Source: Komagataeibacter oboediens (GTDB taxonomy: Bacteria > Pseudomonadota > Alphaproteobacteria > Acetobacterales > Acetobacteraceae). From it: a stretch of DNA of 64,000 bases. Location: contig NZ_NKTX01000001.1 in assembly GCF_003207815.1 (NCBI RefSeq), positions 124,001 to 188,000 on the forward strand, given 5' to 3'. How positions within the stretch are numbered: position 1 is the stretch's first letter; the number at the start of each line of letters is the position of its first letter. The position numbers and the translations under genes are program-made. The notes beneath the pieces were generated by a model that saw only the letters and a program-made list of their open reading frames with translations, had not been told where the DNA came from and made no database searches. Shown in pieces: positions 69-44,394 of this stretch.

Positions 69-2549
69 ATGGCACACAACGGAAATGGACGGCGCATCCT
101 TCTCGGCTCCGTCGCGGCGCTGGTGGTGATCGCGGGCGGGGCGGGGCTTGCGGTCAAGTCCATGCTGGACCCGGATGCGCTGCGCACGAAAGCCATTGCC
201 GCGATCGAAAAGCAGACCGGACGCAAGGTGCGCATGGGCGCGCTGGAACTGCATGTCCTGCCCAGCCTGTCCCTGTCTGTCAGTGATGTCGGGTTGTCGG
301 ACATGGCCGGTGGTGCCTATACCGACATGGTAACGGCGGACAGCCTGCAGGCCAGCATGGGGCTTATGGCGCTGCTGCACCATGAAATCCGCCTGGAGGA
401 CCTGAAGCTGGTCCACCCTGTCGTCCATCTGGAGCGTACGGACAGGGGCGAGGCCAACTGGCGCCTGTCGCCCACCGGCGCACAGGCCACGGCCACGCCC
501 GAAGGTGGTGCCACGCAGGCCGCGTCCGACTGGAAGGTGCAGATCGGCAGCATCCGCATAACCAATGCCGATCTTGACTGGGACGACCGGATGTCGGGCA
601 GCCGGGGCAAGGTGGTGCTGGACCATATCAACCTGTCGGATGTTGATGGCGCGAAGCCCGAAATTGATGTGGCGGGTCATAACGACAGCGGCAGCTTTAC
701 GCTGGCCGGGCATACCGGGGCGATCAACCTGACATCCACCGCGCGCGCCAGCTGGCCGGTTGCGCTGCAGGCGGCATTCAGGGCTGGCGGGCAGCAGGTG
801 GGGCAGCTGGCGGTGGATGGCACCGTGGCTGATCCCGACCACATGAAGGGCTACAACATCAAACTGGATGGCAATATCGCCAGCCTGAAGGCGATCGAGG
901 CTTTCGTGCCGGGGATGAGCCTGCCTGACGTGCGCCGCCTGTCGCTGAAAGCCAATGTGGTGGACGGTAATGCCGCGGACAAGGCAGGCAGCACGCCGCT
1001 GCTCAATTCCCTGCATCTGGATACGGGCGCGGTTGACGCGGGACAGTACCTGTCCGGCCTGACGCTGCAGGGGCTGTCGGTTGACGCGCCGGGGCCCAAG
1101 GACGCCGTGACCATCCGCAGTCAGGGTGCATGGCAGGGGCAGGGGCTGAAGCTGTCCGGCACGCTGGGATCACTGCAGCAGGTGGAACAGGCGGCGCTGT
1201 CGCATCTGGCCGATCCGCTGCCGCTGTCGCTGGACATGTCGGGTGATCCGGGCAGCCTGCGTATCGCGGGCACGCTGGGCGGGTCGCGCGCGGTGGTGAA
1301 TGTCAACGCGTCCGCAGGCAGGCTGCCGCTGCCCAATGGCGCGGTGATCGACCATCTGGACGCCTCGACCCATCTGGTCAGCGAGGATAACGGCGCGCAT
1401 TTCCAGCTTTCGGATATTGTGGTCAAGAGCACGCAGGTCTCCCTCAAGGGGGCGCTGGACCTGTCGGTTCACGGTGGGCATGCGGGCGTACCGCTGGTCA
1501 GTGGCGCGCTTGATGCAAGCTGGGTCAATGCCGATGCCCTGATGGGCAACGCCGCTGCCGGCAAGGCCGACGCCAGCACCACCACGCCTGCGAATGCCAG
1601 GGACAGCAATGACGCGCTGCCGTTTGACCGGCTGCGCAAGCTGGATGCGGACCTGCGCCTGACCGCGGCGCAGCTGGAATTCGAAGGCGATGAATACCAC
1701 AACGCCCTGAGCCATATCAGCCTGCGCAACGGGCTGCTGAAGGTTGACCCGCTACAGGCCGAAGGCACGGGCCGCCGCGTATCGGGACAGTTTGAGGTCG
1801 ATGCGTCGGGCAGCGTGCCCACCGTATCGGGTAAGATCGGCACGCTGGTGCTGCCGGCCACATGGCTGGAAAGCAAGGCGGGCCTGTCCAACATGGTGCA
1901 GGGGGCGCTGCAGGTTGTTGGTGAAGTGCGTTCGCAGGGGAATACCGCGGCCGAACTGCGCACCGGCATGACCGGACACCTTGGCGTGTCCATGGTCAAC
2001 GGAACGGTCAGCGGCAGTGCGCTGGGTGAACTGCTGGGGGATGCGGCGCGCGGCGCGCTGGGCTCCGGCCCGATCGCACTGCGCTGCTTTGGCCTGCACA
2101 TGAGCATGGCCGACAGGCAGGCGAATGTTGACACCATCGGCGTGCAGACCAATGCGCTGACCGTGACCGGCAAGGGCACGGTGGGCATGGCGTCGCAGGC
2201 GCTGGACCTGCATCTGGTGCCGCAGGTCATGATCAGCGGGACAGGGGCCAGCGTGCCGCTGCGCGTGGGGGGCACGCTGTCCGCACCGCGCCCGAAAATG
2301 GATGGCGGCGCGGATGGCCGCTATGCCATCGGCCTGCTGCTGGGTGGATCTAAGAGCAATGCGGTGGCCGATCCGTGCCCCGCAACCCTGAAGGCCGCGC
2401 GTGAGGGACAGGCAGGCCCCGAACCCACGACGGCAGCACCCAAGGCGCAGTCGTCCGGTGATGCAGCAGGTCTGCTGGGCAATTCCAAGGCTTCGCCGGA
2501 TGTAAACAAGGCGGCAGGCCTGCTGAAGGGGCTGGGCATCCTGAAATGA
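69..2549 (+). CDS. AsmA family protein
   Basis: An 826-residue protein with the AsmA layout: a short basic N-terminus, one hydrophobic membrane segment at about residues 11-30, then a long periplasmic domain rich in Gly, Ser and short beta-like repeats. The C-terminal part has the repeating low-complexity sheet pattern of the AsmA C-terminal domain, followed by a Pro/Ala-rich linker. AsmA-like proteins are inner-membrane-anchored and are linked to envelope lipid transport and outer-membrane biogenesis. The ATG at 69 is preceded by AGGAATT and places the membrane anchor directly at the N-terminus. Its end overlaps the next start by 4 nt, so it is probably co-transcribed with the ATP12-like gene. 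The exact substrate cannot be inferred. Confidence 0.85.
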   Translation: MAHNGNGRRILLGSVAALVVIAGGAGLAVKSMLDPDALRTKAIAAIEKQTGRKVRMGALELHVLPSLSLSVSDVGLSDMAGGAYTDMVTADSLQASMGLMALLHHEIRLEDLKLVHPVVHLERTDRGEANWRLSPTGAQATATPEGGATQAASDWKVQIGSIRITNADLDWDDRMSGSRGKVVLDHINLSDVDGAKPEIDVAGHNDSGSFTLAGHTGAINLTSTARASWPVALQAAFRAGGQQVGQLAVDGTVADPDHMKGYNIKLDGNIASLKAIEAFVPGMSLPDVRRLSLKANVVDGNAADKAGSTPLLNSLHLDTGAVDAGQYLSGLTLQGLSVDAPGPKDAVTIRSQGAWQGQGLKLSGTLGSLQQVEQAALSHLADPLPLSLDMSGDPGSLRIAGTLGGSRAVVNVNASAGRLPLPNGAVIDHLDASTHLVSEDNGAHFQLSDIVVKSTQVSLKGALDLSVHGGHAGVPLVSGALDASWVNADALMGNAAAGKADASTTTPANARDSNDALPFDRLRKLDADLRLTAAQLEFEGDEYHNALSHISLRNGLLKVDPLQAEGTGRRVSGQFEVDASGSVPTVSGKIGTLVLPATWLESKAGLSNMVQGALQVVGEVRSQGNTAAELRTGMTGHLGVSMVNGTVSGSALGELLGDAARGALGSGPIALRCFGLHMSMADRQANVDTIGVQTNALTVTGKGTVGMASQALDLHLVPQVMISGTGASVPLRVGGTLSAPRPKMDGGADGRYAIGLLLGGSKSNAVADPCPATLKAAREGQAGPEPTTAAPKAQSSGDAAGLLGNSKASPDVNKAAGLLKGLGILK

Positions 2550-40050: not shown

Positions 40051-41937
40051 ATGACGGAACACACAACGACAACCCCGCCCGAAGCAACGGGTGAACAGCA
40101 TGAATTCAGCGCCGAGGTCGGCCGCCTGCTCGACCTTGTGGTGCATGCGCTTTATTCCGAGCGCGAGATCTTCCTGCGTGAACTGGTGGCAAATGCGGCG
40201 GACGCCACCGACAAGCGCCGGTTCGAGGCGCTGACCGATGGCGCGCGTGCGCTGCCCGATGATGCGAAGATCCGCATCAACCCCGACAAGGACGCCCGCC
40301 TGCTGACCATAAGTGATGATGGCGCGGGTATGAGCAAGGAAGACCTTGCCCGCAACCTTGGCACCATCGCGCGTTCCGGCACCCGTGCCTTTGGCGAGGA
40401 ACTGGCCAATGCAAAGCCCGAGGACAAGCCAAGCCTGATCGGGCAGTTCGGCGTGGGCTTCTATGCCGCGTTCATGGTGGCGGATCGGGTGGACGTGATC
40501 TCGCGTCGCGCGGGCAGTGATGAAGCCTGGCGCTGGTCCTCCACTGGCAAGGGCAACTACACGATCAGCCCGGCGACCCGTGATAAGGCAGGCACCGACA
40601 TCATCCTGCACATCAAGGAAGATGCGAATGATTTCCTTGATTCATGGCAGCTTGAAACCATCGTGCGCAAATGGGCCGACCACATTTCGTGGCCGATCAC
40701 CATCGTCAAGGATGATGGGGAAGAGGCTTCGGCCAACAAGGGTACGGCGCTGTGGCGCAAGCCGCGTGGCGAGATTGATGAAGAACAGCTGAACGAGTTC
40801 TATCGCCACGTCAGCCACAACTTCGATACGCCATGGGCCACCCTGCACTGGCATGCCGAGGGGATGCTGGAATTCTCGGCCCTGCTGTTCATTCCCGGCA
40901 GCAAGCCGTTCGAATTCGCCGAACCGGTGCGTGAAAGCCAGATCCGGCTGCATGTCCGCCGTATGTTCATCACCGATGATGCGGGCCTGCTGCCGCCGTG
41001 GCTGCGTTTTGTGACCGGTGTGGTGGATACCGAGGACCTGCCGCTGAACGTCTCGCGCGAAATGCTGCAGGCGACGCCGGTGCTTGCGCGCATTCGCAAG
41101 GCGGTGACCAACCGCGTGATCTCGGAACTCAAGACACGGTCCAAGGACGAAGCGGATTTCGAGAAGTTCTGGGACAATTTCGGCCCGACCTTCAAGGAAG
41201 GCATCTGGGACGACGCCGAACACCGCACGGAACTGGCCGCCATCGCGCGCTTCAGGTCCAGCACGCAGGACGGCTGGACCACGCTGGATGCGTATCTGGA
41301 GCGCAAGAAGCCCGAGCAGGAAGCCATTTACTACCTGACTGGCGACCGCACGGAAATGCTGCCGTCCTCGCCGCAGCTTGAAGGCTTCCGCGCCCGCGGG
41401 ATCGAGGTGCTGCTGCTGTCCGATCCGGTGGATTCCTTCTGGCCTGACCGCCTGGGCGTGTACAAGGACACGCCGCTGCGCAATATCAGCCAGTTCCAGA
41501 CCGATCTGGAAAAGTTCGGCGCGCCGGAGGAAACGCAGGCTGAAAAGGACACGCTGGAGGTCGTCCTTCCTGCGCTGAAGGACGCACTGGGTGACGCGGT
41601 ATCGGATGTGAAGGGCACCAACCGCCTGGTCAACAGCGCCGTGGTGCTGGCAGCCCCCGAATCCGGGCCGGACCTGCAGATGATCCGGCTTATGAAGCGT
41701 AGCGGCCAGCAGGTGCCCGATACGGCGCCGGTGCTGCAGGTCAACCCCGCACACCCGCTGATCGCGGATCTTGCGACCCGCGTGAAGAATGGCGACCCGG
41801 TGCAGGATATTGCCCTGACGCTTATGGACATGGCCCGTATCCAGGATGGCGAAAGCCCGAAGGATCCGACCGGCTTTGCCCAGCGCCTGACCACGATCCT
41901 GACCCGCCTGCCGCTGTCCGACGGTCCGCAGGGCTGA
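40051..41937 (+). CDS. htpG: Hsp90-family chaperone HtpG
   Basis: A 628-residue bacterial Hsp90. The GHKL ATPase domain has [23 protein letters not shown], the DDGAGM motif near residue 90 and [15 protein letters not shown] near residue 130. The middle domain carries [19 protein letters not shown]-type sequence with the catalytic Arg region near residue 335. A dimerisation domain completes it. It assists folding of client proteins in stress. An RpoH-like promoter may precede it. It converges on a methyltransferase gene. Confidence 0.97.
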
Positions 41938-42027: not shown

Positions 42028-42867
42028 TCAGTCTTTTGTATCAAGCCTGTGGTGTGGGCCGGGTGCCGCATTCGGCTTCATGGCCACAAGGACCAGCATG
42101 GGCGGGCGCCGCACGGTATCTTCCAGATCGGGACGGTCGCGCAGTAGGTCTGCTGCGGGTTGCGGTTCGGCCAGGTGCCGGAGCTGAAAGCCCGCATCCA
42201 GTAGGGTGTTGACGTAGGTTTCCATCGTGCGGTGGTATTTTATGACCCCGTCCACAAACCATGACGTACTGCGCGCGCCCTGCTGCTGATAGTGGTCGAG
42301 TGGCCAGTGCAGCTTGTGGCCGTCCGCATTGTGTATCCAGCCTATGGGGTTGGCGGTGCAGACGGGGTGCTCCACTGAAAAGACAAGCAGTCCGCCGGGC
42401 CTGAGGCTGTCGAAAACGCGGCGGACTACGGCTGCGTAATCCGCGATGTAATGCAGGGCGAGGGAGCAGACCACGAGGTCAAATACCGCGGGCTGCACCG
42501 CATGGTCCTCGATGGAGCCATGGATATAGGTGATGGCCGCGTCGTGCGTCAGTGCGCGTGCGGCTTCGATCATTTTCAGCGATACATCCAGTGCGGTGAC
42601 CGTGGCCGCGCCGCGTTCGCGGGCGTAACGGGCAAAATCCCCGAACCCGCATCCAAGGTCGAGTACGGCCCTGCCATGCAGGTCGGGCAGCAGGGCGCGT
42701 ATCGCCGGGATTTCCAGCGCACCGTTCAGCCCCGTGTCCTTTTCGCGCAGGGTGCGGTATCCGTCAAAAAAACGCGGATTGTCATAAATGTTCTGGGGGG
42801 ACGGCGTTGCCGTGTCTTTTACCTCGCCCGGTGGCGGGGAATCATGGTAATCGGGTGTTGATGTCAT
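42028..42867 (-). CDS. Class I SAM-dependent methyltransferase under an FMN riboswitch
   Basis: A 279-residue methyltransferase. The SAM-binding motif I is AVLDLGCGFGDFARYA near residue 70, the acidic residue after strand 2 is in TALDVSLKMIEAA, and FDLVVCSLALHYIADYA and LRPGGLLVFSVEHPVCT follow in family order. The C-terminal part has SWFVDGVIKYHRTMETYVNTLLDAGF and ends RRPPMLVLVAMK. It belongs to a common proteobacterial family whose substrate is not known to me. The only 5' element on its strand is an FMN riboswitch, and AAGGGAGA about 8 nt before the ATG is its ribosome-binding site. Expression is therefore probably repressed by FMN. Confidence 0.85.
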   Translation of the reverse strand: MTSTPDYHDSPPPGEVKDTATPSPQNIYDNPRFFDGYRTLREKDTGLNGALEIPAIRALLPDLHGRAVLDLGCGFGDFARYARERGAATVTALDVSLKMIEAARALTHDAAITYIHGSIEDHAVQPAVFDLVVCSLALHYIADYAAVVRRVFDSLRPGGLLVFSVEHPVCTANPIGWIHNADGHKLHWPLDHYQQQGARSTSWFVDGVIKYHRTMETYVNTLLDAGFQLRHLAEPQPAADLLRDRPDLEDTVRRPPMLVLVAMKPNAAPGPHHRLDTKD

Positions 42868-42874
42868 GATGGAT

Positions 42875-42907
42875 GTCTCCCTTGGTGGACCCGGTGGTCA
42901 TCCAAGG
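42875..42907 (-). promoter_or_regulatory. Shine-Dalgarno-masking hairpin (riboswitch expression platform)
   Basis: On the minus strand CCTTGG (42902-42907) pairs perfectly with CCAAGG (42880-42885). The latter overlaps the ribosome-binding site AAGGGAGA of the methyltransferase gene. No T-run follows a stem here, so control of translation start is more likely than transcription termination. Confidence 0.6.
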
Positions 42908-42951
42908 CGATCACGGACGGGCACGGACCCGCAGGGGCCGTGCAGCCGCCA

Positions 42952-43090
42952 GTTCTCTTTTATCCGGACTGTCACCGTCGGCCCTGGCATTGCACCAGAT
43001 CTGCTGACCCCGGCCCGAAGGCCGGGCGCTCGCGGGCTTCAGGCCGCAGCCTGTTACCGCCGGTAGGGACTTTCACCCCGCCCTGAGAAC
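42952..43090 (-). promoter_or_regulatory. FMN riboswitch (RFN element)
   Basis: Read on the minus strand the element has every conserved block in order. P1 is GTTCTC / GAGAAC. The first block is AGGGCGGGGTGAAAGTCCC, then TACCGGCGGTAAC, then AGCCCGCGAGCGCC. A GC-rich variable stem follows, then GGTGCAATGCCAG, GGCCGACGGTGACAGTC and CGGATAAAAGAGAAC. The class binds flavin mononucleotide and represses downstream genes. The downstream gene is the methyltransferase at 42867, not a known riboflavin gene. Confidence 0.96.
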
Positions 43091-43302
43091 ACAGGCGATC
43101 AGGATAAAGGCGGGGCCGTATCTGGCGCAAGCCTGTGGAACCGTCCGTGATCCGGTTGTATGATGGACGATGACCGCGGGACTGGCGGCCTGCCGGTGTA
43201 AAAAAGCGATGTATCGGGGGCGGGGGCTTGAATAACAGCCTGCTGAATGTTTCCTTACGCCCCTTTTGTGTGTTCTGGTTTTTGGATGGCGGCAAGTATT
43301 AT

Positions 43303-44394
43303 ATGAAAATTGATAACGTCTCTTATCGCAGCGTATGGGTAGATGCGGATGATGGCTGGTCGGTCCATATCTTTGACCAGACCCGTCTGCCCTGGTCGCT
43401 TGATATCCTGCGCCTGACTGAACGCGACCAGGTGGCGCACGCCATCCGCAGCATGCAGGTGCGTGGCGCGCCGCTGATCGGTGCGGTCGCGGCCTATGGT
43501 CTGGCGCTGGCATTGCGGTACGATAGCAGTGACGCCGCCATGGAACGTGATGCGGCGCTGCTTGCGGCCACCCGGCCCACGGCGGTCAACCTGGCCTGGG
43601 CGATCCGGCGCATGCTGACGCGCCTGCGCCAGACCGCACCCGCGGACCGTGTGGCGGCGGCATATGACGAAGCCGGGCGCATCTGTGATGAAGACGTGAT
43701 CCAGAATGAAGCCATCGGGCGGCAGGGCCTTGAACTGATCGAGGAGATCGCAGCCCGCCGTCCCGGCCCGGTCAACATCATGACCCACTGCAACGCGGGC
43801 TGGATCGCGACGGTGGACTGGGGCACCGCACTTGCGCCGATCTACATGGCGCATGACCGTGGCATTGACGTGCATGTCTGGGTGGATGAAACGCGCCCGC
43901 GCAATCAGGGCGCATCCCTGACGGCATGGGAACTGGGCCGCCACGGGGTGAAGCATACCGTCATTGCCGATAACGCCGGTGGTCACCTGATGCAGCATGG
44001 TCAGGTGGACATGGTGATCGTGGGCACCGACCGTGTGACCCGCACGGGCGACGTGGCCAACAAGATCGGCACGTATCTCAAGGCGCTGGCGGCGCATGAC
44101 AATGGCGTGCCCTTCTGGGTGGCGCTGCCGTCCACCACCATCGACTGGTCCATTAGCGATGGTGTGAAGGAAATCCCCATCGAGGAACGTAGCGGCCGTG
44201 AAGTCACCCACATTCAGGGGCGTGACGAAGGTGGCGCCGTGACGGCCGTACAGCTTGTGCCCGATGGCAGCACCGCCGCCAATCCGGCATTTGACGTCAC
44301 GCCCGCGCGGCTTGTGACCGGGCTGATTACCGAACGTGGCCGCTGCCCCGCAACGGCGGACGGATTGTGCGACCTGTTCCCCGAATACGTGTAG
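43303..44394 (+). CDS. mtnA: Methylthioribose-1-phosphate isomerase
   Basis: A 363-residue enzyme of methionine salvage that converts 5-methylthioribose-1-phosphate to the ribulose form. It is an eIF2B-alpha/MtnA family member. Motifs include QVRGAPLIGAVAAYGLALA near residue 50, NIMTHCNAGWIATVDWGTALAPIY with the active-site Cys near residue 165, and VIVGTDRVTRTGDVANKIGTY with the catalytic Asp near residue 245. The ATG at 43303 is chosen as the family start; an in-frame ATG at 43228 lacks homology. Divergent from the FMN riboswitch. No other mtn gene is near. Confidence 0.94.
   Translation: MKIDNVSYRSVWVDADDGWSVHIFDQTRLPWSLDILRLTERDQVAHAIRSMQVRGAPLIGAVAAYGLALALRYDSSDAAMERDAALLAATRPTAVNLAWAIRRMLTRLRQTAPADRVAAAYDEAGRICDEDVIQNEAIGRQGLELIEEIAARRPGPVNIMTHCNAGWIATVDWGTALAPIYMAHDRGIDVHVWVDETRPRNQGASLTAWELGRHGVKHTVIADNAGGHLMQHGQVDMVIVGTDRVTRTGDVANKIGTYLKALAAHDNGVPFWVALPSTTIDWSISDGVKEIPIEERSGREVTHIQGRDEGGAVTAVQLVPDGSTAANPAFDVTPARLVTGLITERGRCPATADGLCDLFPEYV

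Follow-up and report, generated by a model that had tools for sequence, protein, structure and literature searches.

The locus considered here lies in a stretch of 64,000 nucleotides from Komagataeibacter oboediens (contig NZ_NKTX01000001.1, positions 124,001 to 188,000), which is called the window below. On its minus strand a leader containing an FMN riboswitch precedes an open reading frame (42867-42028) for a class I SAM-dependent methyltransferase, the sole gene behind the switch on that strand. The gene is flanked by a convergent frame that we take to be htpG and, upstream of the leader, by the divergent gene mtnA. Where genomes and loci have to be told apart, our own G and L numbers are used. 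The features are as follows.

42948-43094, minus strand: FMN riboswitch aptamer (RFN element), Rfam RF00050, 103.5 bits
42952-43090, minus strand: P1 stem, 43090-43085 pairing with 42957-42952 (six pairs), the same in all five sequences
42921-42943, minus strand: auxiliary hairpin of the expression platform, 9 pairs, with a compensatory change of C-G to U-A in K. rhaeticus (G255)
42897-42915, minus strand: 19-nt block common to ribH FMN-switch leaders of other Alphaproteobacteria, from the platform alignment
42880-42907, minus strand: predicted hairpin sequestering the ribosome site, CCUUGG (42907-42902) with CCAAGG (42885-42880), inner GACC with GGUC
42877-42883, minus strand: Shine-Dalgarno sequence AAGGGAG, seen directly, 9 nt ahead of the ATG
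42028-42867, minus strand: class I SAM-dependent methyltransferase, 279 aa, ATG start, from Pfam Methyltransf_11 and PDB matches
40051-41937, plus strand: convergent neighbour, presumably htpG; open reading frame, so named in the sequence-only reading
43303-44394, plus strand: mtnA, divergent neighbour, TIGR00512 and PRK05720 above cut-off, start codon picked by eye

The sequence-only reading of this DNA had described a complete RFN element at 43090-42952 of the minus strand, a lone 279-residue class I methyltransferase downstream of it and htpG convergent beyond. All three statements hold, as the covariance check against Rfam returned RF00050 at 103.5 bits, Pfam and the list of open frames agree on the methyltransferase, and the frame at 40051-41937 runs on the plus strand. 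The divergent neighbour mtnA had not been named there.

In a cmscan search of the whole window against Rfam 15, the riboswitch match (43094-42948, minus strand, E 6.2e-23) covers the full length of the model, positions 1-138 of 138, the gathering cut-off being 66.2 bits. Aptamers of four other genomes carrying the same arrangement score 103.0-106.8 bits with RF00050. The P1 stem, whose end points had been given earlier exactly to the base, consists of six consecutive pairs, GUUCUC with GAGAAC. Two outer P1 pairs of the model and one end pair of another helix are formed in none of the five sequences; the core aptamer helices are formed in all five, and most aptamer pairs are invariant throughout. 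By curated score and helices, membership of this RNA element in the FMN riboswitch family is confirmed at the level of sequence. The genome of K. oboediens contains two RF00050 matches, one at the methyltransferase locus and one in the leader of a gene that we take from its sequence to be ribD; on the point, raised earlier, of other rib genes, ribD thus has an FMN switch of its own. A promoter scan gave no sigma-70 site; a weak TTGCGC-N18-TATCCT was seen by eye, and no promoter is claimed for it. The base composition of the insert formed by switch and methyltransferase gene is not distinct from its surroundings.

The expression platform contains two hairpins. In the auxiliary one, three cells at two other pairs are unpaired among the five sequences. 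The sequestering hairpin has 8 of 10 pairs invariant, a compensatory change of U-A to C-G in G252 and one pair broken in 3 of 5 sequences; its helix CCUUGG/CCAAGG covers part of the Shine-Dalgarno sequence. When the platform was folded alone, the first four Shine-Dalgarno letters were paired at 0.99-1.0 in all five species, and in the two full leaders folded, those of G000 and G251, the pairing was 0.63-1.0. Pair counting over the five sequences gave 91% of cells paired versus 32-51% in slid controls. Two compensatory pairs were found versus 0 in each of six slid controls; among 500 shuffles, 26 did as well. Two slid controls had as many further pair types (three), and covariation is thin with five sequences. 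Identity between carriers is 87-97% in the aptamer, 84-97% in the platform and 70-95% in the upstream region. For the pair G000 and G258, the aptamer of the methyltransferase locus is 85.7% identical versus 95.1% for the ribD aptamer.

By analogy with known FMN switches, binding of FMN would stabilise P1 and favour the hairpin hiding AAGGGAG, and expression of the methyltransferase gene would fall with ample FMN and rise with a shortage of it. We infer translational OFF control on this footing, and the direction, the translation level and the alternative ON fold, which was not found, are all conditional on the analogy. For the ribD FMN-switch leader of Gluconobacter oxydans, RNA coverage is read, in the available part of the report, as transcription termination and not as translation control (PMC5756330).

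At least one FMN switch is present in each of 19 Komagataeibacter genomes, and two are present in five of them. The same five genomes, and no others of the 19, hold a methyltransferase match at 76% identity or more, located beside the second switch and always between htpG and mtnA; the remaining 14 are without the pair. The sequence-only reading had left conservation of the pair to a comparison of relatives, and it is indeed kept in five species. Besides K. oboediens, the carriers include K. intermedius, nearest to the window genome with 90% identity of the methyltransferase and 94.9% of ribD, as well as K. rhaeticus (G255) and K. swingsii. In G252 the methyltransferase gene is broken into two pieces, and the leader still scores 103.7 bits. 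The genes mtnA and htpG are adjacent in all 19 genomes, and the region between them measures 1365-1390 nt in carriers versus 255-856 nt in the 14 non-carriers, where it gave no FMN-switch match at E <=1.

A tree of mtnA and ribD, in which several forks are weak, places the carriers in three groups separated by non-carriers. The mtnA of G252 is closest to that of G258 and its ribD to that of G255, and these differing affinities suggest that the htpG-mtnA locus was probably exchanged between species. The distribution would be most simply read as a single gain with subsequent losses or exchange of alleles. In the non-carrier G253 (L077), the same intergenic region, 856 nt long, seems by eye to be occupied by a different extra open frame; the site may thus merely accept insertions or be an insertion hotspot.

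The genes that FMN switches precede were compared over 150 loci, comprising 24 from the genus, 66 from the family (six shared) and 66 of the 76 class rows that lie beyond the family, ten being omitted by no set rule. As references, a ribB (L117) and one ribH (L114) came from annotated records, and the reference ribD and the other reference ribH were named on our assumption from their sequences. By best similarity, the gene behind the switch was ribD at 77 loci, ribH at 40, ribB at 25, the methyltransferase at 5 and of unresolved class at 3; that is, 142 of 150 loci are ribD, ribH or ribB, three are transporter-like and five are the methyltransferase. At one alphaproteobacterial locus (L215, G360:C114:55720-57279; switch at about 151-310), the frame 526-1560 on the plus strand contains a TonB-dependent receptor plug domain, and this protein is a candidate outer-membrane flavin importer. 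Switches ahead of PnuC-type and EamA transporters were also seen in Alphaproteobacteria, in L236 (G351:C14, frame 191-1069, minus strand) and L197 (G623:C1).

Available parts of the literature give a similar picture. FMN switches ahead of the ribD operon are reported for Gluconobacter oxydans (PMC5756330) and Novacetimonas hansenii (PMC12405394). In one survey, as far as its accessible text goes, 233 FMN switches are classed as biosynthesis or transport only (PMC3766115), and the seen portion of another, covering 842 switches in 1133 genomes, has two exceptions, neither of which is a methyltransferase (PMC4418817). Table 1 of the latter paper includes yaaDE of Thermaerobacter marianensis and CLJU_c14910 of Clostridium ljungdahlii as FMN-switch targets with no obvious riboflavin role. 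According to that table these are other enzymes from one organism each, whereas the methyltransferase target occurs in five species. As far as titles and the beginnings of abstracts show, no methyltransferase controlled by an FMN switch or RFN element was found among the papers listed by the literature searches.

The five aptamers of the methyltransferase locus form a clade of their own, not close to the ribD aptamers of the genus. The nearest aptamers outside this clade, with 73-77% identity, belong to the ribD switch of another genus or to a rhizobial one, and among the ten nearest aptamers of each of the five there is one ribD switch of the genus, at 69.3%. On these identities we reject the idea that the ribD switch was duplicated recently within the genus. 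When whole leaders were compared by blastn, the top hit beyond the clade was a ribB leader (L196; 83% across 161 nt, of which almost all is aptamer), with a ribH and then a ribD leader next; the aptamer dominates this comparison.

The 76 nt from the aptamer to the ATG were compared by local alignment, with 60 shuffles each, with 149 of 154 loci (the 150 and four plasmid loci; in five the platform was not separable). Outside the methyltransferase leaders, a z of at least 5 was reached by 10 of 42 ribH platforms and by none of 77 ribD platforms, 24 ribB platforms and one unresolved platform. The ten matching ribH platforms come from five families, by tool labels, and from Paracoccus denitrificans (L114, annotated ribH). 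The other 32 ribH platforms are without a match, so the matching type is a subtype of ribH leader. With ribH-type FMN-switch leaders of Alphaproteobacteria the leader has in common the full aptamer, the post-aptamer block CGTGATCGCCTTGG and the ribosome-site region, and the shared stretch reads CGTGATCGCCTTGGgTGAC, followed by a purine-rich ribosome site; the difference is that it stands here ahead of a methyltransferase and not of lumazine synthase.

The sequence-only reading had considered that a rib gene might have been lost by deletion from between the switch and the methyltransferase. One part of this idea survives, since the leader apparently derives from that of a rib gene; the other part finds no counterpart, as switch and methyltransferase enclose no rib gene in any of the 19 genus genomes and a search of the insert for remains of ribH gave nothing better than E 0.26. 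The ribosome-site hairpin abuts the start of the methyltransferase gene. Residues 1-23 of the protein lie ahead of the point where conservation in the family begins (NIYD...) and are modelled with low confidence, which makes it likely that leader and gene were joined at the start codon or close to it. The first codons resemble those of ribH, a likeness too short to count.

Homologues of the methyltransferase (E <=1e-30) and FMN switches were sought in wider samples. In the family (249 genomes) they were found in 43 and 64 genomes, respectively, in the class (387) in 25 and 80, and in the phylum (328) in 32 and 128; the samples overlap, and without the window's own genome and repeats they contain 93 distinct genomes with a homologue. 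In none of these 93 does an FMN switch lie beside the homologue, contigs and coordinates being compared by eye and the switch searches over more than 40 genomes being run with stricter filters, which lose weak matches. Rfam at the gathering threshold gave no FMN switch at 20 of 29 fetched homologue loci of the family. A widespread pairing of switch and methyltransferase is not seen in these family, class and phylum samples.

A donor search over genome contigs gave five loci, of which three are Komagataeibacter carriers and two (L082, L083) are without an FMN switch. At the DNA level, none of 120 matching plasmid records spans 80% of leader and gene; protein homologues occur in 465 plasmid records, all below 60% identity, and no rib gene is among the annotated neighbours of three of them (Providencia, Rhizobium and Enterococcus pRUM). 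On the Enterococcus faecium plasmid pRUM (L120), a 42%-identical family member lies between a nucleotidyltransferase gene and ant(6)-Ia/sat4, and homologues occur in 366 enterococcal plasmid records, many of them beside an annotated nucleotidyltransferase gene. The open frame at 23-886 of L085 starts with a peptide containing SEMCIRDR, presumably a typical adapter artefact of assemblies.

The protein itself matches Methyltransf_11 in Pfam (E 8.7e-22), and none of the 25 NCBIfam matches shown reaches a cut-off that would give it a named function. Pfam and NCBIfam return SAM methyltransferase families alone, with no homology to riboflavin synthesis enzymes or known transporters. Two PDB entries, 3bkw (E 1.8e-61) and 3g5l (E 2.6e-60), match it almost end to end; they are class I methyltransferases from structural genomics that have generic names only and are also the best fold matches of the predicted model. 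Partial matches in PHROGs and PADLOC (phrog_4752, phrog_22502, mads_2) cover only the SAM-binding part. In a tree of 71 rows, the proteins under the switch group as a single clade (SH-aLRT 94) and fall outside a main clade of 55 rows. Compared with this main clade, 62 columns conserved at 90% or more are kept and 10 such columns are changed (for example, W53 to I, W77 to D and R42 to E), so the substrate may differ from that of the main clade. As a guess, it might be a small metabolite, perhaps a heteroaromatic one, and not an intermediate of the riboflavin pathway. A second Komagataeibacter homologue, 45% identical (L056, G000:C111:319348-323142, frame 1516-2430, minus strand), belongs to the main clade and lies beside a gene that we take to be groEL-like; four of the five cassette carriers have it (G252 at 38%) and none of the 14 non-carriers does.

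Among the four intact copies of the methyltransferase gene, pairwise dN/dS is 0.18-0.27 at dS 0.21-0.83, as compared with 0.14-0.22 for ribD and 0.04-0.08 for mtnA, which indicates ordinary purifying selection. Together with the conserved aptamer and ribosome-site hairpin and the two compensatory changes, this suggests that FMN sensing by the switch is probably still used.

In our opinion, the most probable explanation is that the FMN-controlled methyltransferase gene arose by capture of a ribH leader and that the resulting cassette then entered Komagataeibacter. An alphaproteobacterial ribH-type leader, with aptamer, platform and ribosome-site region, would have been joined at or near the start codon of the methyltransferase, and a cassette of about 1.1 kb consisting of leader and gene would have entered the genus between htpG and mtnA, to be lost or swapped out later in several species. 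The broken gene of G252 fits a weak or lost need for the gene. We infer a donor of the leader or cassette; none with the pair was found in the sampled genomes and plasmid records.

The sequence-only reading had preferred another view, namely that the methyltransferase catalyses an unknown step in the supply, salvage or modification of flavins, FMN feedback being the original logic of the locus. The almost exclusive use of FMN switches for flavin supply, with 142 of 150 loci at rib genes, three at transporter-like genes and a like picture in the accessible parts of the surveys (PMC3766115, PMC4418817), argues for it, as does the conservation of the aptamer. So does the fold search with the predicted model, where the first match with a known substrate is the toxoflavin methyltransferase ToxA of Burkholderia glumae (rank 8, TMq 0.60, 24% identity). 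ToxA is a SAM methyltransferase acting on a flavin-like ring, its structure was solved with toxoflavin, a flavin-like azapteridine, and its chains also appear early in the sequence profile search. However, other methyltransferases score close to ToxA in the fold search, the model is middling (mean pLDDT 72.7), and the likeness is a lead towards a flavin-like substrate, not evidence. RosA (4D7K), also a SAM methyltransferase acting on a flavin-type ring, is not among the best 60 of 230 profile hits; in the available part of its description RosA is said to resemble mitomycin 7-O-methyltransferase (PMC4982073). Against a flavin step speak, moreover, the 93 homologue genomes without an adjacent switch, the 14 genus genomes without the pair, and the ribH type of the leader, since selection on behalf of the methyltransferase gene is then not required to explain the switch. 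A new step of flavin metabolism is, in our view, unlikely. A variant that joins both views, in which a ToxA-like enzyme transfers methyl groups to a flavin or to a heterocycle of the flavin pathway, its production being confined to times of FMN shortage, and the cassette brings a flavin-modifying or repair enzyme with a ready-made ribH switch, seems to us quite unlikely.

Leader capture might also have left only a passive relic, a leader that merely supplies a ribosome site, with FMN control lacking a present role and the cassette decaying. The patchy occurrence in five of 19 genomes, the broken gene in one of five, the ribH-type platform and an aptamer less conserved than that of ribD are in keeping with such decay, but P1 with its six pairs, like most of the aptamer's pairing, does not vary among the five sequences, the sequestering hairpin is maintained, in one case through a compensatory change, conservation of the aptamer far exceeds that of the gene's synonymous sites, and the leader of G252 keeps its score despite the broken gene. 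There is, we believe, only a slight chance that this is the case.

That the cassette, lying next to mtnA, ties into methionine salvage and coordinates methyl or sulfur metabolism with flavin status is suggested by the divergent neighbour and by ribF (PF06574), which in L121 (G000:C99, 1039-3364, minus strand) overlaps a putative mtnC with a putative mtnD upstream; this is nevertheless very improbable, as SAM methyltransferases release S-adenosylhomocysteine and not the methylthioadenosine recycled by mtn enzymes. In N. hansenii SI1, according to the accessible part of the report, ribCF clusters with genes of the same pathway and is co-induced with them (PMC12405394), but in Komagataeibacter mtnA stands beside htpG in 19 of 19 genomes and the cassette in only five, and the other open frame of G253 seems to occupy the same, perhaps simply tolerant, site.

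The presence of an FMN riboswitch is used as a ground for placing a gene in flavin metabolism. The apparent capture of a complete ribH-type switch by an unrelated enzyme and its retention in several species mean that such an inference can fail; if it does hold here, the locus points to an undescribed flavin-related methylation. In either case, a real, conserved and apparently functional FMN switch acts, judging from its sequence, on a new target, and these bacteria, which are used to produce cellulose, provide a compact case from nature in which a riboswitch has changed its target.
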